From NCBI RefSeq assembly GCF_032118995.1, contig NC_092648.1:635001-699000 (forward strand): DNA of 64,000 nt, in the 5' to 3' direction. This document shows positions 11,912 to 55,900 of the stretch, piece by piece. Every line of letters starts with the position of its first letter. The stretch's first letter is position 1. Below the pieces are notes generated by a model. It made no database searches, was not told the DNA's origin, and worked only from the letters and a program-made list of their open reading frames with translations. The stretch comes from Asterias amurensis. Its lineage: Eukaryota > Echinodermata > Asteroidea > Forcipulatida > Asteriidae. Position numbers and translations under genes: made by a program.

Positions 11912-13689
11912 CATCCCACTATTGTATATAATCATGCCTCATGGTGCAGTGTGTATTTAGTCTGTAGAAATACAAACTTTTCATGTGAAGATGTCATAAT
12001 GTCGAGAGGAATGCATAATGTTATGCATTCATTCTTTCTCCATATTGACGTGTATGATTCTGGCTGTCCTTGTACAAACATTGACCAAACCCTTACTATC
12101 ATAATGAACTCTGCAGTTCCACTGTAGTGTTCATTGCCTCAAAATAAACCCCAAATTTGCATCTGCAAGGAAATAGCAAGGAGTTTCAACATTAGTGTGA
12201 GCCAATAAGCTTGGCAGTTTCTTACATTGGTATCAAAATTCATTGACTTGAAAAGCAGTGGGCTTAACGTGAAAAACACGGAAAATAAAAGTAAACAAAT
12301 CAACGACTTTTGAATAATACTTGTTCAAGTATGAATACGAAAGAGCAAGTGTCTTTGACACTTTAAATAGGAAATGCAGACAATTTCAGGAACTGCAATG
12401 CTATAAAAACACCTTATCTTGAAGTAGGTTAACGAATGAGCTAAATTACCCTGGCTCTTTTGATGTGTATGCACTTTCATTTTAATGGAGTTCGAAGCAG
12501 GAACCATTTAGCATCAACTTGTCCGTTTCCTGACTTTGCTCGGAAGAAACACTCCACGCTCGGTCGTTAACTTTTCTGAAAGTATCTTTAATCGAATTAA
12601 AGGATTTGGGTGTGTTCTATAATTCATTTCTGTTGCGGTTTTGATCGCTTAAATTCCCTACGTCCTTTGCCTTTTCCTAAAGGGTCATTGGCTTTCAAAG
12701 AGTGCACAAGAAAAGCCAGATCTACACAAGACAAGAAATGACGTGTAGGGTTTTGAGGTGTAAGTCATGTAGGTTTGTAGATACCTCAAGATGACACATC
12801 GACAAAACTCTCTTGTAAGAATTTTATGTGTAAATTTGTATACACTTTTAAGCAACTGACAACATTGAAATTAACGACACGACTTGTAAGAACAAACCGT
12901 AACAAAAACTAAAGTTTGCGACATATCTTTTGCCTATTTTGTTTTCATTTTTTAAAAGTTTTTTTTTTAAATGTCACAGAGGCTATACAAATTATGTAAT
13001 AATGTAAAATACAAAACTTGTACATAAATAGGTAAATTAGAAGCATTTATCATTGTAAAGTTAAAAGATAATAAGTAAAAACCTCTGTTTATAATTAGTT
13101 GCTTGTTGCGGACGCATCAAATTGCTCCACGTTTGTTTTTGTACATTTAGTTTGCTTTGCTTTGCTACTGAACTTGAAAAGTTAGAAGGGCAAACCCAGA
13201 GACAGACTAATTGCTCTGATAGTATTCGTTACGGTGCGGTATTAAACACTTTTTTGTAATTTGTAAGTTTAATGGCAGGCTAATATACTTAAGTCTTGTA
13301 TCTAGAAGCAGACGTATTGTTTTCAAAAATAATCAACTACATTGTATTTTTTTTGTCACGATGAGAATTCTACCGAATCTATGAGACAGACACGACTATA
13401 ACAGAAAGCATGTGTGAATGTTGGAATAACATTAGAACAAAAAGAGTTTATTTTCTATACAAAAGTCAAATGCAAATAGCATTTTACTAAAGTCTTTTTT
13501 CTCCAGTTACATATTTTGGATCCCCATTTTTTCGTTTGGTGCTTCCACTTGAATGTGAACTGTATTTAGTCATGGTTGTAGCGGTTGGTGTTTTATTGTG
13601 TTGCTGTGCTCAATGCAATCTCAGGAGGAATCATTGTGTTTATCAAGCTGGTACCCTGTCTCCCTCAAATCACCCTTATCCCATAGCCT
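11912..13689 (+). other. SPRED 3' UTR and downstream non-coding DNA
   Basis: Directly follows the SPRED stop. A canonical AATAAA lies at 12284-12289, and several weaker AT-rich candidates follow, so the cleavage site cannot be fixed by eye. No other gene is supported to 13689. Confidence 0.5.
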
Positions 13690-14040
13690 AGGTGGATTTC
13701 TACCGGGTGCTGGGTGCTTCTCCCGTCACCCGTATGGAGTGAGTGGGCTCATGTGGGATTTTCCATGGGTGCTTCTCCTATCGCCCATATGAATTGGGTT
13801 CCTGTGGGATCTCTACTGGGTGTTTTACCCATCACCCATATGGATTGGGCTCCTGTGGGACTTCTATCGAGTGCTTTACCCATCACCCATATGGATTAGG
13901 CTCCTGTGGGATGTCTACTGGGTGTTTATCCCATCACCCATATGGATGGGGCTCCTGTGGGATTTCATATGTGTACTTGTCCAATCACCCATGGAGTGTG
14001 TGTTTTTCCCATCACCTATGTCGAATGGGCTCCACAATGG
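13690..14040. repeat. minisatellite, 51-bp unit, about 6 copies
   Basis: The anchor CACCCATATGG or close variants recurs at about 13727, 13782, 13833, 13884, 13935 and 13986, an exact spacing of 51 bases in the middle. Units carry GGGCTCCTGTGGGA and CTACTGGGTG. Because 51 is a multiple of three, open frames run through the array in several frames. They are by-products of the repeat and not a gene. The edge units are degenerate. Confidence 0.85.
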
Positions 14041-14794
14041 GTTCAAAGGGTGCTTGTTCATAGTTGAAAGGTTGAAGTAGCAGAGAAGTCAAAGTGTCCT
14101 TAAGTCATCACTAAAGTTTACATTATTGTTTGGGTCTCGGCTTTTTGATTCAGTTTCAATTTCTATCTTAGACAGTTACTTGTCCATGCTAGGAATGTCT
14201 TTGATGGATACATATTACTTCGGATATTCATTTAATTAACTTTTCAAAGGGAACTTTTCAACGATGTAAAGAGAAATTTGTAACAACAATCCTCCGACAA
14301 AAGGGAAACTTCACACCAAGACAACTATGTTTACATTTTTGTTACAAGAATTCCATCTTCTTTTTTGTTGAAAAACTTGAATTATTGATTTTACCAAGAG
14401 TATAAGCAACTCAACTAGCAATTAAGGAAAAGTTATTATGTACAATGTACATATTTGAAATAACACATTGTGTAGAAGATGACACCAAATCAAGCCACAC
14501 AAAAAACAATATCTCAGAAAAGCTTTGTCAATTTCCAATTTTGTGGGCATTGATAACAAACCTGTGTTGATCTAAACAGCGAAAATACACATGTGATGTG
14601 TTATTCCGGATGTTTCAAATAATAAAGTGTCATTTAGTTCCTCATAGTCAAGTTACATCTCTGGTAAAATGGAGCTTGATTCTGACTGGTGTCAGTCTGG
14701 GTACTTATTCACATTCATTAGACTTGGGTGCTGCTGCTTGTGTTTTAAGAGTGTCTGTTGGTCGAGCACCAGTCTAAACTCCATTAATGTGTTG

Positions 14795-20596: not shown

Positions 20597-20772
20597 AGCT
20601 CTCGGTCCAATATCATAGAGCTGCTTAAGCACTAAAAGTAGCTGAGCATAACAAGAATATGCTTACCAGAATAAGGTGACTAGCGTAGCTACAATGTCAC
20701 AGTACAGTTCGTAACTTGTATCCTGCTCATCAGAAAATTGGTAAGCAATATTTTCTCTATGAAACCGAGCCC
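20597..20772 (+). repeat. MITE family A, complete-looking copy
   Basis: The ends are inverted complements: CTCGGTCCAATATCATAGAG on the left and CTCTATGAAACCGAGCC on the right. The interior carries GCTTACCAGAATAAGGTGAC and TATCCTGCTCAT, shared with the other family A copies. It is about 175 bases and non-coding. Confidence 0.7.
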
Positions 20773-21844
20773 TGTTGAAGTCAGCTTTGAAAGGGGCACT
20801 CAGTGAATAAACCATATTACGAGGAGGGTTTTATTTCTAAGTGATTTTTATCTCTCAGAGTATTTAATTATCATTGAGAACCATAATAGCTGGAATTTTT
20901 CTGTCAAATCAGACCTAACATCTACTTATGAGATTTACAGATCATACTTTCACAGTGCCCGAGTGAAAGCTATCAAATACAAAGTAGTTAATCTTTCTGT
21001 GAGAACGAGTTAAGTTCAAGCTTTAAAGCCTGGTTTATCATTGTCGGCATAGCATGTTGGTTTCCTGTATGTAATGGGGCTGTGTAGTGTTGCTGGGATC
21101 CTAATGAATTCAAGCTAATATCAAATGAGCAACTCTTTTACGCATCATTTCAGTTCTCAAAATGCATTTCTGCATTTTAAATGTTTAATAAGAAATCAGT
21201 CATTTGTTATATCCTAACCGAATATAATAACGAATATTAAAAAATTACATTATAATACCTGAGAAAATTGTTTGTCAATAGTACACCTTGTAGAACTTTT
21301 AACTTAGATGAACCTTCTATAAACAACAAATGGCAAGAAATTAATAAATTGGCATATAATTAGCAAATCAAGATCTAGAAAAGATCTGTGAAGACATTAT
21401 GTTTTAAACAAATTTAGGTCAGCAACAATAACCTGAGAAATGGCCTCAAACATTGAGTTGTCTTCATTATCATTATTATTCACATATTTCAGAAACACAG
21501 CTTTGCAGCTTTGAGCTAAAAATCTCAGCTTATCAGTCAAAATGCCAATCTTTTAAGTTTTCAAAAAAACATCAGTGCAGCAATTCTGAAACGGGTTTGC
21601 CCGGTCACTATAAAGCCAATATTTTATAACGTATAAATAACTCAAATATCCTATTTGACAAAACAAAACGATAAGTCTTTCAGAATGTCCTATCAGCTTA
21701 CACAACAAGGATGTGAAAGTGAGAACAACTTCTTCCTTTCATTTCAATTCATGAGGTTCAAAGACAAACTCTAACAACAACTTGTCAAGAACAGGGTTAT
21801 CATTTTCAGTTTAAAGTCAGATTCTGTGGCAAGCACCCAGCAGC

Positions 21845-21992
21845 ATTATGAAAGTGAGCCCGAATCTTTATGCTTACCACAGTAAGGTTACCTGCCAAAA
21901 TACCATGAACCATGTACAGTTTGTGATTGGTATCCTGCTCATTTCTGCTTAGAAAAATCGTCTGCTCAAGCAGCTCTACAGAATTTGGGCCC
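21845..21992 (+). repeat. MITE family A copy
   Basis: Carries TGAGCCCGAATCTT at the left, ATGCTTACCACAGTAAGGTT and TGGTATCCTGCTCATTTCTG inside, and AGCAGCTCTA followed by TTTGGGCCC at the right end. It lies 240 bases past the stop codon of the unnamed minus-strand gene. Confidence 0.65.
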
Positions 21993-22152
21993 AGAGACTA
22001 AACATTTACATTTGAGAGAACTCAGAAATGAAAAACATTCAAGGCAAACCACTGGCTAACTTTTTGTGTGAGAAGCAGATTTTATCAAAGTGAACTCAAT
22101 TACTGGCGTAGGAAGCTTGGATATCACGGTGGTCGGTAGCTACTGCTATATG

Positions 22153-22232
22153 GAGGTAGTGATGTCATACCTATAAATAGATGACCACTGTTGCTGCTCA
22201 CAGGGCAATCTATTTTTGGGTATGACATCATC
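22153..22232. repeat. foldback element abutting a stop codon
   Basis: The left arm (GATGTCATACCTATAAATAG) is inverted relative to the right arm (CTATTTTTGGGTATGACATC). The right arm ends at the TGA (22235-22233) of the minus-strand gene, so the hairpin would begin the 3' UTR of that mRNA. Confidence 0.6.
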
Positions 22233-25052
22233 TCAGCTTTCATTGAAGAACAGATCGGTGTCTAAGACTTCATCAAACCAGTCCCCTTTGATGATTGGTG
22301 AACTAGGAACCTGAGTACAAGATCAAAACATATCACAGTGGACACTAACTGCTCAGTTAAACTTTATACTTAAACAAAATCTATTCAGTATTGGAGATTA
22401 TTTAATGTAAACAAGGAAAAGATATGTAACTTGGGACCTTCAAATGAAACACCATAAACAAAGTTCAAAACAAATTTCATTGGGGTTTTTTTTTTTTTGA
22501 TTAAAATTCAATGTCTCGATATTTTTCAAGCAGAAGCCTTGAAATGCTTTTGTTTCAAAAATGCCAAGATTTAACACTCTTCAACTTTAAACTGCTTAAT
22601 ATTTGATAATCCTCATATTGAATGTATTTGTAAAGATCTTATTTTAAACATGTTTAATTGATGAGATTAGCTATTTTCACAAGATCATTTCCACAGGTAA
22701 AATACCACAAGCTATTTATTGAGTTACCTCAGGAGAATTGGAAGTTTTGATGCTGGATGATGTTGCTACATTACTGTCCAATTGTGGTGGGATTTGCGTT
22801 TTAGTTTCTGATACCACAGTTGACTTGATCTCATCGAAGAAGTCATCATCATTAAAATCCAACTATGGAAATAAAATAAAACCCAGTAATCTGCTTAACT
22901 TCATCTTTCATCAACCAATCTGAGACTAGGCTCTAAACAGTCTTTCTGTCATATGGGAATTCATGTTTTCATATGATCCTGTCATTGAAACACGTTTCCA
23001 CGCCACTCAATTATCCTTTTTGACAAAACAAAATGACTTTTGGAATCTCCTGAATGTATCAGCTTACAAAACAAGGATGTGAAAGTGACAACCACTTCTA
23101 ACTTCCAGGTGCTTTCATGATGCTCAAAGATAAACTCTAACAACGGTTCTTGTCAAGAAATATGATAATCATTTTCAGTGTAAAGCTCAGATAACAAGTA
23201 TAGAATTCTTCCTTTTGAATATCTTTTCTCCACTGTGATGTAATTTTTATGAACTAGAATTAATCAATGATCTTGTAAACTGAAAAGGCTGTTGTTTCCT
23301 AAACTCCATGGTGGATAACAACAAAACAAATTTATCTGGAGATCATTTTAATCCGTATTATAATTGAGTCTTTGGACTGCGACAAACAGATGTTTTTTAC
23401 AATAAACCAGTAAAAATAATAATAATAATAATAACTATTATGCTGGCTCAGTAGTTTACTTCCGTCTTTTTTCTTGTTTCTTTCTACTTACATCAAAGGC
23501 TTCATTAAAGTTATCTGTAGGTTGGAGTTCTGATATTTCTTGATCTTTCTGCAGACTTGACTCCATTGATGACTGCTGTGAATTCATCTGACCCCATTGC
23601 ACCACAGGAGGCTTCTGCTTATCAGTTCAGAAAAAGAAACACAAATTATTAGGAAGTCACAATTCTATCTATCATTTTGATGCTCATGCCTAAAAGGTAA
23701 AAACACATATTAAATATCTGTCAATAAATGAAATGAATCAACTATCTTTTTTCATCTGTATATTTACATAGAATACTTTGTACATTAATTATTGCCCCTC
23801 ATTATTGCCTAGGCGTCTCATTCTTACTGTACTGAAAAATAGTTTCAATTTCCAACATCTTGACAACCTTACTTTACTAAAACAATATAAACCCATTTAA
23901 ATCATTGCATAGCCCAATCAAATCAACGGAAATAATGTTATGTTTCATACCATTAAAATACCAACTGCTTTAGATATAAAACAGATTCAATGCAATCTCG
24001 AAACTACAAGGGTCTGTGTGGATTGGAAATAACTTTTTTTTCCCATACCAAGCAACTTAACAGTGAACCTAAAGAGCGCCCTCTATTGACTGATCCTGTT
24101 TTTTACCTGTTGTGTTGTTGGTGTTTCAGATGGCAAAGAAACTTCATAACGATAAGATGATATAGATGTGAGTTTGGAAGAAACTGCTGCCGCTAGACTA
24201 GATGAGTTAGGTACCTAAGGATCAAACAAAACAATAAATTAAACAACACAGTTTGTATCTCTTCTATCCAGCTCGAACAGTCTTTCAAACTTTCCTTTAC
24301 TCACAATCGATTGTCAAAATTGTTAGACTTTTGTTTTTTACATATGCCACAGTTGCTGAACTTATAAAATCAAATCAAAATAATTATGGTTTTAAATATA
24401 AGTGCTTATATGTATGGACCTTTCAACTTCAAAGCTTGTTGTATTGATATTTTCCTGTGGTTGTTGATTGTGTTAAGTTATTAATAAGAAGAATATACAT
24501 ACCTCTAGGAGTGAGAAACAAGTCTTCCTGAATTCATCATTGGTGCTGTGGCTTACCACTGTAGAGATTGCATCAGAAATGTTACAGATGGACTGTCTTG
24601 TAATTTCTTCTCTTGTCTTTAAAATCTTTAGAAAGAACAAAACAATTACAAACCACATCAAGATGCAATAGCCATGTGCTTAATGCATTGGATATAGAAA
24701 GAACATATTATTTATTATAATTTATATCAAAATATTATTATTAATGTTATTACAAAACTTTATTAGTTACGAACTGGTCACTGCGACACTGAAGGTTAAT
24801 ACAATTATTAACAACCCAACAATAAAGTCTTTGAAAACAACAATTTTATCCAGGTGTTTGTGAGTTTGAACTTGAAGCCATGAACTTGAAGCAAATCCGA
24901 CAATACCATTCAACTTTCATTTCAAGCAACAACAATCAATTAATAAAATAATAAAGTTATTGTCTATAAATGATATAACAAAAATTGATATTGATTCAAT
25001 TTACCTTATCAGTTGAAGCTGAATGTTCTGTCATACTGCAGGTTTCATTCAT
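22233..25052 (-). CDS. uncharacterised 204-residue acidic protein, six coding exons
   Basis: I do not recognise the family. Coding exons on the minus strand are 25052-25005, 24625-24503, 24214-24107, 23614-23492, 22862-22728 and 22310-22233 (TGA). Every intron is phase 0 with GT-AG ends, and the joined frame is open from ATG to stop, which strongly supports a real gene. Residues 17-57 look like an amphipathic helix (ILKTREEITRQ ... FRKTCFSLLE). The middle is Ser/Thr/Gln-rich and low complexity. The C-terminal third has two acidic-aromatic motifs, FNDDDFFDEI (about 136-145) and DWFDEVLDTDLFF (about 189-201), of the kind that bind folded partner domains. No membrane segment or signal peptide is seen. 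A non-coding first exon appears to end at 25350 (GAAG|GTTAG), joining an acceptor at 25063. It is transcribed divergently from ARID4, with about 700 bases between them. A nuclear adaptor is a guess only. Confidence 0.75.
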
Positions 25053-25350
25053 CTTACTCCAAACTATTAAAGCAACATTCAAGAGACAAATATTCATGAT
25101 TATTAATGTGATGTAAATAAAATATGAATGGAAATTTATATAATAATAATATTCTTGAATAAATTATTAATAATCAAATTATATAAAATTACATTGTAAT
25201 TTACAACAATGAATTGAATAACTAGAAAAGACGAGCATTATCCACTTAATTACAAATTACAAATTGTGGACAATCCCTACACAATTACTGCGCACAAATA
25301 TGTGCAAAAGAACCCAATATTTAGCAGACGATAAAGACAGCTTTCTAACC

Positions 25351-26051
25351 TTCAGAAGTCGGTCAAGCGCGGAGTCTAGCTGCCATTTGTTTATGATTGC
25401 CCAAAATTAGCTCAGTTCGTCTGCACCGCGACTTAATTACACACATTCACCTTTGATTTATACTCAAAAATTACCAACGTGGTGATAAGCACCAGACTAT
25501 ATTTTAACTGGTTTTTCGGGGAACCAGCTACCGGGGATTTACCTTTTGCAATGTCTTGTAACCTATCCCTTTTATATGTTTATACACAGCATTAAAGAAT
25601 GAAGCCAGACTAACTGTGACCTGAAACGTTTCGTCACACGTGATAAGTGACCAATCAGAGCGAGGGACCCCCCATGATATGTTGTTGTGACATGATTCAC
25701 CATGTACTGTACGTTAATGCAATACACATCACGTACGCACAACACAAACTGATGCTAAACTTATGTCTCCTTCAAACAGACGGACTACAGAATGAAGAAA
25801 TTGACAAAATGAGTAAATCTTTTGCGACGTAATTCCACCCAAATTGACTGATACAACTTATAGGTTGTAGAGATAAATTAATTCTTCACATGCTGAAGTG
25901 GAACTGAATGAATTAAACAATGGTAACGTATATTTTGTGGAGATTTATTAATTTTTTTATTTGCTGCAAATTCAAGCAGTCAAACGCTTTTCAGAGGCGC
26001 AGACGACACCGGCGAAACGCCGACAACTTTACGTTTTTACAGTCAGGCAGA
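25351..26051. promoter_or_regulatory. probable bidirectional promoter between the unnamed gene and ARID4
   Basis: Two divergent genes have their first exons at the ends of this stretch. A CACGTG E-box lies at about 25636-25642 and a GACCAATCAG CCAAT-type box at about 25650. More GC-rich, CpG-containing sequence occurs near 25995-26030. Start sites were not determined. Confidence 0.5.
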
Positions 26052-29000
26052 ATGAAAAAATTTCCCGTATCTAGCGAATATTTTGGAATATTTTGATTAG
26101 GGTTGCATTTTTCACCCCCTCGCCCAATTTTTGATATCGTCATATTCAGAAAATGTAAGTTCAGAACAAATGTTTTAAGTCAAGAGACAATGCAAAATCT
26201 GACATCTATTTTCAACTGACTGCCATTCGATTTCAGTTGTCTGGAAAATACACAAGATGTACAGAACAGATTACACCCAACGTCAGTCTGAAATTAACTT
26301 GTTTCACTAAGTTTAATTAGGTGCTATTTTCATGACTCTAGATTGATCAACTCTTATTGCATTTACATTTCTTGGCACTGCCTGCCAACTGTCTGGCCTG
26401 ATTGAAATTTTACAAAAATAACATTTGAAAACCCACACAGAATCAGGGCGAATTAGTAATTATGCACACAATCCCACTAAACCTTTATGGTTTTCATTTA
26501 CTGTTTAAAAACTCTATTCTTTGTTTTTTAACAATATTCTCTGCTTACTTTGTTTTTATTCTTTCATGTCTAACATTTTTTATTCTTGGTATATGATGTG
26601 ATTTTGAAATAAATGACCTGTAAAATGGAATGTGGTTCATAACTTTGATTCAAAATAGCTGTGTTGATTGTTATTTACAGTTTGTTCTTTTTATTCATTT
26701 TGTTATTTCAGGCCAGTGGGGAAGAGCCAGCATACCTCACAGTAGGAACCGATGTTAGTGCAAAGTATCGAGGTGCTTTCTGTGAAGCTAAAGTGAAAAT
26801 TGTGAAGAAGTTTGTAAAATGCAAGGTGAGTTGCGATTCATCGTCAGTGCTTCAATTTGCAGGGTTTGCAGTTACAACCATATAGTGATTGAGCAAATAT
26901 AATACCTACACAGTTTAACATTTGAACTGTTAAATTGATAGCAAGCACTGAATTATCTTATTTGTTTATGAGTAAGAGTTTTTCGATAATCAACACAATT
27001 AAGAGATATTTATCAGAGTGAAAGTCAACATTTCAACAAAAAGGTAAATTTTACTCTTTGTGAAATCGGCCCAGAACTGTTATATTAATATGAATCTTAG
27101 TGCTTCAAATGTGAAATCGGGCTAAGTTAATGTTAGGGATAAGGAAGCCATGACAATTATTTATAAATGTCTTGGATTATTTCCTTGTTTTATACATCCT
27201 TATAAATGTGAATGTGGTGGTCACAGTAAGTAAACATATATGTTTTTTTTTTAAGGGTGGTTCAAGTTGATAAAATAGTTCCTTTATTTCTTTATAATAG
27301 GTGCACTTCAGTGATGGGACGAATGGAGTGATTCCAGATGAGCTAGTCAAAGGAAACCTGAAAGTAAGTCATGATCAAATGCTTAACTACAATTGTCTGG
27401 AAAAATTTCAATTTTTTTTTTCTTCTTCATTTTTTGAGCAAGTTCTTCAGCTGTTGTGCAGTTTATTGAATTTATTTGTTGCTTATTTTAATTGAATTTT
27501 ACTGTTGAAGTCAGGGGTCTGATACTTCATGAAATGTTCAGATAGAAAGTTATTTTCCTCACAGAGGTGCCTTTAACAAAGGAGAAAACACCTTGGTGTC
27601 CTTGCCCTTTCAAGAAAGGAGCATCAGGTCTGATGTCAATATTTAAGAGCAGTACGGTTACTTATATGTTTTATCTGATTCATTTATCACTCTTTAGGTT
27701 GGACAGCCGGTTGAAGCCAAACATTTAGAGACAGAGAATTGGACAAAAGGGACTATTATGAAATTAACTGATGCCAGTACATACACTGTTGGTAAGTAAC
27801 TCTGGTCATCTGTTCATATATGTTTTCAATGTCATGGTAAGTTGATTTTTGTACAGCAGAAAAATAATCTAACTTTGCAACACGACCAAAACTGATGGCA
27901 GTATAGATTTGAAACCTGCATACTTGAATTATTCTTTCAGTTTTTGATGATGGAGATGAAAAAACGTTAAGAAGAACTTCCCTGTGTCTTCAAGGTGAAA
28001 GACACTTCAACGAGAGTGAGGTAAGAAAATCTAAATATCATATCAAAAAATTGTAAACGAGTGTAGAAAGTGTTTTGTATATTGTTCAGTGATTTACTTG
28101 TATTGCTTCTGTGTAATTTTGATATTTTTTGTTCTCTACAATTATTTATTCATTCATATTGTTATAAATGTTGATTCAATGTATTTTCTTCCCAACAAAG
28201 TCGTTTTAATTCTTTATGTTTGTTGTGTAAAGCTTTTGATGTTCATGCCTGTGATTTTGAATGCTTTTTAAGATGTAGATTCTTTCTTTAATTTTAATTC
28301 AATGTATCTTCTGCTTTATTATAGCATTCATTGTCGTTTTGTCAAAAAATGTATGAATACTGATTCAGTCGTGTGATGTATTTTCTGTGAAATATTTTTG
28401 CATTTTTATTGTTTGTGTTATGATTGCATATTGACATTGTCATTAGTGTAAATGTCTCAGTTGATGTTTGCTTCTTGTCTGTCTACAGGCTGAACCAAGA
28501 GAGCAATCCCAGATTACATGTCCTCTTCTCTTATCTCATATTTTATCCCACTTTTTAATCAAAAGAAACTTATACAAAATTATTTGATTGAAGGAGAAGA
28601 TTTTGAACTCATTTTGTACAATATTAATTTCCCTACCAGACCTTGGACCATTTACCACTGACTGATCCTGAGAACTTTGGTACTCCGGTCATGCGTGAGA
28701 ATAAGAACAAGAGAAAACGCCGACTTAGCACACGATCACGGTAAGAGGTGTACAACACACACAAAATTGACAACATTTGTTATTTGTGCAATTGAGACTT
28801 TACCTATCAAATAATAAACCATAAGAGAAGCTGACTGGGTCGATTTTTAAATCGTTCCTGTTGGACAGAGAAACATTGACTGGAGCGGTATTTGAACCAA
28901 AGGCCTCCGGATTAACGTGCAGGCACTCTACCAACTTAGCCTAACTGAAGATGAAAAATAGGAATTATTTGTTACAAAATGTTCTGCCTTATGTTTCGAC

Positions 29001-52980: not shown

Positions 52981-55900
52981 TCAATTTATTCTAAGCTTTT
53001 CAAGCTCAGAATGTATGATTCCCAGAACCGCATCGTCCACAACTTCCCTACCATCTCCTAATGCTGAATCCTCAGATGATATTGTTCCATACGTCGTAGA
53101 TGTGTCTGTCTTATTATCCTTCTCACTGAAGAACCTTGCTGAGTTACTGTTGTTATTATTTCCAAACGAGTAGTCTCGTTCTGGGTAATGTAAACCCACC
53201 ATGCTATCATTAGGTGAGAAGTCATAACCTGAGAGGCGGTCCGTTGGGGAATCCCCTTCCTCAGAATACATACTGACTAAAGCACGGACCCCCTTCACAC
53301 GCGATTTGGTGTCGTATATGTTCCCCATCTCGCCGCTTCTACTGCCTTCATCACTTGTGACATCATCAAGGACAATTCCCATGTCTTCAGTACTGGCATT
53401 ACTGCTGTTTTTACTGTCCATTGTGTCTATGGCACCGAGGATGTCTACAGATTGAATTGGTCTAATGGGTGGTGGAGATGTCACATATCGTACATCAATG
53501 TTATTTCTGAATACAATCTCATCTGGAATATGGCGTGAATGTCGTTTGGTTGGTTTGGGTTTAGTTGGTGGTGGTGGAGGTTTAGGTTTACTCCGACCTA
53601 AGGAATGGATGGTATCGGAGTCTGGAAGGTACATACTATTGCTGAAGAATCCACTAGAAGGTCTTGAAGGTGGCTGTGATGGGCTCATTGGTAAATCGGG
53701 TACAGTGCTGTGCATAAGTCCAGGTAAAGGTGTCTTGCTTTTATCTCTCATAATCCAATTAGCTTCAGAGTGCGACTCAACCTCGGGGCTATCCCCACCA
53801 ATGTCTAAATCCATACTCTCATTGATTATTGAGTCTAAAAAGTCTAAGGTGCTCTTCTCATCTGTTGGCAATTCAAGTTCGGGTGATTCCTCAGGGGGTC
53901 CTGAGGGCACAGTCTCTACTTGAACGTCCCTCTTTTTAGCCAGAGCTTCTTTAACCTGTTCCTTAAGGGTAGCCATTGTTTCCCGAACCTCAATATCTCG
54001 ATAATCTTCCGCTGTATCCGCAGATGGTAATAAACTTGACGGTACATCTTCCTCCACTTGGCTTCGATTCACAAATCTCTCCGAGGCTTGAAAATCCGAT
54101 CCGACTCGATCAAGGAATGGATGGACATCTTGTGAGAGACTTAGGTGAGAGGGAGGACCTGTATAAGACATCTCTGTCCTCCTCTCAGATGGGAAGTCCT
54201 CCCCAAGGAAATCTGTAACATCTTGAGTTCTTGAAAAGTAACCCGGGACCTTGCATCAAAAGAAACAGTATAAATGACAAGTTAATTCAGTGTTGACAAT
54301 TTTCCAGGCCATGAATTATGTCCTTGAAAGGGGCACTTCTATAAGGAGAATGTAAATTTGTATTGGAATTTTGCAGAGGGCACCACAGCAAAACCACAGG
54401 GCACCCTAGCAATTGCTGTGAATTCTTCTATTAAGTTGTTAGTAGCCACTTATTTCATTTTTTACTTTGGTTTACCCAAAACAGACGTGTTATTTAACCC
54501 AAGTGTAAAAAAACAGACAAAGATCCACATGACATACTACTTGAGTGGGATTTAAAATTCCTGCAAGTCATTTACATCTATTAGACAGATTCATTAAAAT
54601 AATTTCTCGTTCTCTAATATAATCAGAATCAATTAAATATTCATTCAATTATCGTTTTTATTGCATTATATGGTTCGTTGAATATGATTGTATAGAAGTT
54701 GAGCAATGACGTCAGAGGCTTCAATAGTAAATGCTATTTAGCGTACCATATGGAGACAAATCGAATTCAGAAAATACGTTCAAGAGAGTGGGCACAATTC
54801 ACTCTCTTGGTTCACTCAATTTCCATACAAAAATCCAGTTAGATCGTATCTCCTAAATTGATTGTATTTCATACTTGGTTAAGTTTGTGAGTGAGCCTTG
54901 GAGTGTGGCCTTAAAGCTACTTTGCTATTCTGTTCCTAGTCTTCTCAAGGGAACTGAGTGCTTTTGAAAACTATTGTCCACTGTTTGTCTGTCTAAAGAA
55001 ATGATCACCGCTCATTCTCTCTGTCACAAACCACTGAGGGTATTTATGGAACTATGTGACCTGTACCAGTTACAGATCAGGACTTTTTTGTCATAAACAA
55101 GTACCCTTTAAGTATTTCGGCTTGTCAAATATCACTTACATGTAGAGTATAGATCCTTCCCTCCACTTTGTGTGTGTACCTTTTTCAACACGCCATAAAA
55201 TCGTCATTTTAAAAAAATACAGCAAAGTATTGTTGAATCACTGAGCCATATTTTAAAAACCAATCATCAATAAAGTACATAATTGCTGTTTAAATGTAAC
55301 CATTTATGTTTAAGAAAAAGAGTAGAGTGCATACTTATGCAGAAGTAAATCTTTAGGACAATGCAATGGGTGTGTTTTGTTGGTCGTGTAACCAATAACT
55401 GTTTTAGTCATTAGCCAGTGATAAACCAATAGCAAATTCAACAGAAACAGTTACTGGTTACGACCACCAAACCGCACCCCAAACAACAGATAGAGTTAAA
55501 GTTGTATCTACACTGGTGCAGGCAGAATCAAGTTACACAATTCCTACAAGAAAATAAAGTTCAAGGCTGACCACCCTCAAATTGATCGGTCTGCCATCTG
55601 TCAACTTTTCACAGGAAATCATGTATGATATTTGTACTTTGTACCTCAGCATATGTGAAGACGCGTCAAGATTAGAATTCAACAGGCTGCTGAATCATAA
55701 AGTTTTGACCGTTGCTAACTTATACTGTGGATGATTTAAAGAAAATGTACACTGTGATACACAGATCACTCAAAAGTTTAGAGGAAAAAAGCAATAGGAC
55801 ATCCAGGGTTGCCCCCTTTTTCAGTGACTAGACAGCAGGACCACATAGCTGTTTATTTCACATCTGAAAAATGTACTACCGTACTCTTACAAACCATTTT

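Follow-up and report, generated by a model that had tools for sequence, protein, structure and literature searches.

A probable six-exon orphan gene head to head with ARID4 in Asterias amurensis and its two acidic-aromatic tail motifs

The window analysed in this study (64,000 nucleotides of A. amurensis contig NC_092648.1) carries on its minus strand a gene model of six exons, extending from position 25052 down to 22233, whose joining in phase 0 yields 204 codons followed by TGA (Table 1). It is very probable that this is a real gene (hereafter the orphan gene), and it is placed head to head with ARID4. The reading that we prefer, with somewhat less than even confidence, is that of a single-copy coding gene for a small adaptor with two docking motifs, for which TFIIH p62 would be the most specific guess. 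The identity of the target is the least certain step of this reading, and the function of the orphan protein is one that we infer.

An earlier note on this DNA had proposed six coding exons joining in phase 0 into a clean 204-residue frame. This was confirmed by joining the exons, each of which has a length divisible by 3 and contains neither a frameshift nor a stop, and by the introns (288 to 629 bases), all of which are of the GT-AG type. The same note had described all-phase-0 introns as unusual; all five introns are indeed in phase 0, but the claim was overstated, since phase 0 is the most frequent intron phase in animals and chaining of frames by eye favours it, which makes the pattern only mildly unusual. 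The four internal exons are symmetric, and therefore each could be skipped without a shift of frame, which is a property of the sequence and not evidence of alternative splicing. The acceptor of exon 4 is a tandem NAGNAG (23617 or 23614), the upstream choice adding one Gln, so the protein would be of 204 or 205 residues. The span given in the earlier note ends at 25350, i.e. at the 3' boundary of a likely 5' untranslated exon, whose donor would pair with an acceptor at 25063 (3.7 bits); if this acceptor is unused, a further upstream in-frame ATG is possible for exon 1. The 204-residue protein gave a single match in the 491.5 Mb genome, at its own locus, even with E values up to 10.

Table 1. 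Features of the orphan gene and its surroundings (window coordinates; splice site scores in bits; a slash marks the exon/intron boundary).
Feature	Position	Strand	Remarks
Near-perfect hairpin, pre-miRNA-like	22160..22230	+	starts two bases beyond the TGA of the orphan gene
Coding exon 6	22233..22310	-	25 aa + TGA; acidic-aromatic motif 2 DWFDEV, residues 189-194
Coding exon 5	22728..22862	-	45 aa; acidic-aromatic motif 1 DFFDEI, residues 141-146
Coding exon 4	23492..23614	-	41 aa, 42 with acceptor 23617; Gln/Ser-rich; C-terminal NFNEAFD
Coding exon 3	24107..24214	-	36 aa; Ser/Thr-rich; weakest codon statistics
Coding exon 2	24503..24625	-	41 aa; predicted helix-turn-helix hairpin
Coding exon 1	25005..25052	-	16 aa, MNETCSMTEHSASTDK; donor 8.1 bits
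Putative shared promoter block	25200..26299		CpG o/e 0.61-1.76
Inferred 5' untranslated exon	25350..25420	-	3' boundary 25350, 5' end guessed; ends CTGAAG/GTTAGA; donor 6.8 bits
Inferred ARID4 start codon	25920..25922	+	end of exon 1, ATG/GTAACG; donor 5.4 bits

The exon architecture was compared with chance by a strict search of positions 21900-25500 for open phase-0 frames of 90-150 bases with a donor of at least 7.5 bits and an acceptor of at least 2.8 bits. Under these limits, which were chosen with the exons already seen and which use splice matrices built from consensus splice sites, the gene strand of the 3.6-kb region contained four internal phase-0 exons, six first exons, 12 terminal exons and three six-exon chains. 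The internal exons were exactly those proposed (exon 4 with the acceptor three bases upstream), and no internal exon was found on the opposite strand of the region in the same search. A six-exon chain appeared in none of 300 dinucleotide shuffles and in none of 30 non-genic pieces of the window (overlapping, both strands), and the four internal phase-0 exons compare with means of 0.03 in the shuffles and 0.07 in these overlapping pieces. When the limits were loosened in two steps and 16 non-genic pieces served as the reference, the region had four disjoint phase-0 exons versus a mean of 0.75 (maximum 2) and then 2.0 (maximum 4), and five exons of any phase versus 0.88 (maximum 4) and then 2.44 (maximum 5). 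The exon architecture exceeds chance under the strict limits, and the contrast shrinks under the looser ones. The GC content of every exon (0.38-0.42) is above that of every intron (0.26-0.32), and a similar contrast was observed in ARID4 (exons 0.40-0.49, as taken from a gene model, and introns 0.27-0.38). The remaining two sense frames are closed by stops in all six exons, and certain reverse-strand frames are open.

Codon statistics were less favourable. Scores were compared with a null of open non-coding segments, and are given as the share of the null at or above the candidate. For the whole-codon score this fraction was 0.0004 with a small training set from the window and 0.018 with 30 kinase loci of the same genome combined with generic amino-acid frequencies, whereas in synonymous codon usage the candidate was indistinguishable from non-coding segments (fractions of 0.29 and 0.31). 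Its per-codon score was -0.057, versus 0.085 to 0.286 in seven of the eight control stretches (those open as given), and its synonymous per-codon score was -0.083, versus -0.071 to 0.099 in the seven open controls.

A crude gene model assigned 0.6 bits to the full six-exon chain, and favoured exons 5-6 plus a shortened exon 4 (7.0 and 4.2 bits). A score of 4.2 was attained by one of 100 shuffles and by 16 of 42 supposedly non-genic pieces, some of which overlap likely exons, such as the top-scoring one, which adjoins a minus-strand frame at 46-47 kb that to us looks like RBM34 (the pieces of this frame that were tried gave no RRM match in Pfam). With lower intron penalties, the best score of the region, which then comes from chains other than the proposed one, was attained by 5 and 0 of 100 shuffles and by 12 and 9 of 42 pieces. 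Exons 5 and 6 are the best supported part of the gene. The weak codon statistics, the low score of the full chain and the frequency with which supposedly non-genic pieces reach the best score of the region would suit a chain formed by chance or a gene that has decayed, i.e. no functional gene at all. So would the lack of a nearby polyadenylation signal: AATAAA is absent from the minus strand within 1.2 kb past the stop (21000-22240), and the variants scanned there gave just ATTAAA at 21189 and TATAAA at 21628. The strict exon test, the contrast in GC content between exons and introns, the canonical splice sites and the exons free of stops and frameshifts argue against this explanation, which we regard as highly improbable.

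The earlier note had also placed the gene head to head with ARID4, and this was borne out by matches to PDB sequences and by an ARID domain; the stretch separating the two starts retains CpG. ARID4 occupies the plus strand to the right. Among PDB sequences, human ARID4A (E 1.3e-15) and ARID4B match its first full coding exon, and an MSL3 chromo-like match and the ARID domain follow further on. The exon beginning at 26712 has an acceptor of 10.9 bits and reads ASGEEPAYL, and ARID4 probably starts with the ATG at 25920, which a donor follows immediately. The inferred start codons of the orphan gene and ARID4 are approximately 0.87 kb apart. On the basis of the inferred first ARID4 exon, the two genes are oriented head to head within 1 kb, with one CpG-retaining region between them. 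Flanking this region, the CpG o/e ratio is 0 in 24900-25199 and 0-0.34 in 26200-26799; inside it there are an NF-Y-like CCAAT match at 25649 and CACGTG at 25637.

The intergenic block is consistent with one bidirectional promoter, from which the orphan gene and ARID4 would likely be co-expressed. In this respect the pair resembles divergently transcribed gene pairs, with inferred start codons lying head to head about 0.87 kb apart and a CpG block with a CCAAT box between them, and the arrangement, an uncharacterised small gene with a promoter region common to a chromatin gene, is a familiar one. The partner itself differs from that in the human ARID4B pair: the head-to-head neighbour of human ARID4B is GGPS1, and the pairing is therefore not common by name. 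On its left, the orphan gene is flanked by a Sprouty-domain gene, presumably a SPRED.

The earlier note had recognised no family for the protein, and the database searches bear this out. With the whole protein, Pfam returned no family at E values up to 10, in a search in which the HMMER filters discard most weak matches; with exon 2 alone, the best Pfam match was a phage capsid model (E 0.18, 11.3 bits versus a cut-off of 27). PDB sequences gave no significant match to the protein.

SERTA membership (PF06031), suggested by eye, was rejected. Neither the protein nor exon 2 matched PF06031, and a profile search of the genome reported six places, two of them over the cut-off, with the orphan locus not among them. 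In a free gapless alignment to two true SERTA genes, 0.84 and 0.10 of shuffles were as good, and for the single register picked by eye the fraction was 0.03. Like the orphan protein, SERTA-domain proteins (SERTAD1-4, CDCA4) are small and combine a short helical element at the N-terminus with an acidic motif at the C-terminus; the orphan protein differs from them in having no PF06031 match. The two SERTA genes elsewhere in the genome (L008 1087-1860 and L009 829-1791) each consist of one open frame, of 257 and 320 codons respectively. A Pseudomonas CorC/HlyC-type protein (L045 4377-5216) has DNFNEAFD and the acidic run after it in common with the exon 4/5 junction, which we dismissed as coincidence.

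Structure prediction suggests a modular protein, in which the modules coincide with exons. Exon 2 alone is predicted to form a helical hairpin: an AlphaFold2 model without alignment had helices at 5-25 and 30-40 and a mean pLDDT of 90.9, a value that short helices readily receive from a single sequence. Structure searches with this model returned generic hairpins only. For exon 5 alone, the model was poor (mean pLDDT 65.4), with a short helix (6-18, block pLDDT 71-72) over the motif. The protein is very likely mostly floppy, its head being small and helical and its tail carrying two sticky motifs. Residues 196-200 in exon 6 (DTDLF) fit an acidic-DLF pattern of the SNX27 type, for which shuffles give an expectation of 0.01.

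The two tail motifs form the best repeated hexamer of the protein, D[F/W]FDE[I/V]. This repeat was equalled in 5 of 300 whole-protein shuffles and, when only the last 80 residues were shuffled, in 15 of 1000. Among 300 random spliced non-coding frames, 50 equalled or exceeded it; since these do as well, the repeat alone is no proof of selection. The pattern [FWY][DE][DE][VI], which was devised from the motif already seen, occurs twice versus 0.04 expected in shuffles. An acid-flanked aromatic with an aliphatic residue at +3, as a pattern match only, is provided by F143/I146 and F191/V194.

Several partners could be read into such motifs. If the gene is real and encodes a coactivator, they would be two acidic activation modules that, much as in SERTAD or CITED proteins, make contact with CBP/p300 or Mediator. 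The acidic-aromatic composition suits this, as does FDEVL, which fits the pattern PhixxPhiPhi; however, the two matches to this pattern compare with 2.39 expected and are therefore uninformative, and no SERTA domain was found in the protein. We think such a role unlikely.

The earlier note had proposed docking onto RPA70N, which for a real gene would imply a role in DNA damage or replication. DWFDE shares WF.E with p53 TAD2, with one match versus 0.00 expected in 500 shuffles; this match is single and confined to the second motif. RPA70N binds acidic-hydrophobic amphipathic peptides, among them that of p53, and in WRN one such motif is present as two copies in tandem (PMC10479964). The tail motifs resemble the ligands p53, WRN, ATRIP and BLM as acidic, amphipathic, aromatic-containing peptides, with tandem copies as in WRN. 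The direction of the bound peptide varies among RPA70N ligands, for which the main text of this source gives no common consensus (PMC10479964). The spacing of p62 PH-domain ligands fits the motifs at least as well as RPA70N docking does, and autophagy patterns fit too; we see little likelihood in this proposal.

The autophagy patterns would make the motifs LIR/FIR elements for Atg8 or FIP200, and a real gene would then encode an autophagy adaptor. FDEI and FDEV match [W/F/Y]xx[I/L/V], with acidic residues ahead of the core, as well as the FIR consensus (PMC7615515). The loose LIR pattern nevertheless has four matches in the protein (two overlapping) versus 3.2 expected in shuffles, and we judge this role quite unlikely.

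The preferred TFIIH reading draws on the spacing of the motifs. Several ligands of the p62 PH domain use two pockets, the first for an aromatic residue and the second for a Val three residues on, such pairs being F408/V411 of UVSSA, F95/V98 of Rad4 and F387/V390 of TFIIE-alpha (PMC11266705); in RPB6 the p62-binding pair is F13/V16 (PMC8754651). p53, DP1 and Elf1 bind p62 more weakly and without the valine (PMC11266705), and the F..V spacing therefore does not define the class of p62 ligands. F143/I146 and F191/V194 resemble the stronger, valine-bearing form. The likeness to the TFIIE-alpha, Rad4, UVSSA and RPB6 regions comprises the acid-flanked aromatic, the Val/Ile three residues on and a probably disordered tail; the orphan protein differs in having two copies of the motif, and no sequence kinship was detected elsewhere in the protein. 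The TFIIH PH-domain family (PH_TFIIH) has a partial match in the genome, just above its cut-off (28.5 versus 27.1 bits).

As an adaptor, the orphan protein might work as follows: (i) the exon 2 hairpin, a likely binding or dimerising head, would engage one partner; (ii) exons 3-4 would serve as a Ser/Gln-rich linker; and (iii) the two tail motifs, disordered when free, would insert their aromatic and Val/Ile residues into the basic groove of a nuclear partner, most specifically the p62 PH domain of TFIIH, as with TFIIE-alpha, Rad4, UVSSA and RPB6. With p62 as the partner, the protein would bring in TFIIH during transcription or repair. It is a long shot that the ARID4 promoter drives a hitherto undescribed adaptor with two sites for recruiting TFIIH and with its head on the chromatin or repair machinery; the exon 5 motif being skippable in frame, splicing could then set the number of TFIIH sites.

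If transcribed and conserved in sea stars, this would be one more uncharacterised adaptor-like gene, linked to ARID4 through a common promoter. It would also be a compact system in which to ask whether TFIIH or RPA is recruited by an acidic-aromatic motif that occurs in repeat. If the frame is not conserved, it would be one further lineage-specific small protein. The finding is a modest one until relatives, transcripts or binding appear.

Downstream of the stop codon, the hairpin listed in Table 1 is a 71-base inverted repeat with arms 91% complementary, the highest value in a list of eight such repeats in the window. Its plus strand is the most stable of 8522 90-base windows (every 15 bases, both strands, 64 kb), with -40.8 kcal/mol at 40% GC, and the minus-strand fold has a z of -6.1. 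A genome search with the hairpin found one place, reported twice through the reverse self-match, which makes it unlike a dispersed element. No Rfam gathering score was reached. The hairpin could serve as the precursor of an antisense microRNA or as part of the 3' UTR.

Two local duplications were observed in this part of the window: 21640-21822 / 23005-23192 (78% identity, spacing 1365), for which the genome search shows just these two copies, located in intron 5 and downstream of the gene, and 20658-20730 / 21869-21942 (76% identity, spacing 1211). Elsewhere in the window, the minus strand at 52984-54255 contains a proline- and acid-rich open frame of 424 codons with no Pfam match at E values up to 0.1, and open frames at 13559-14060 carry a minisatellite-like repeated unit (HHPYGLGSCG.. 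and YPSPIWIGLLWDFY..).
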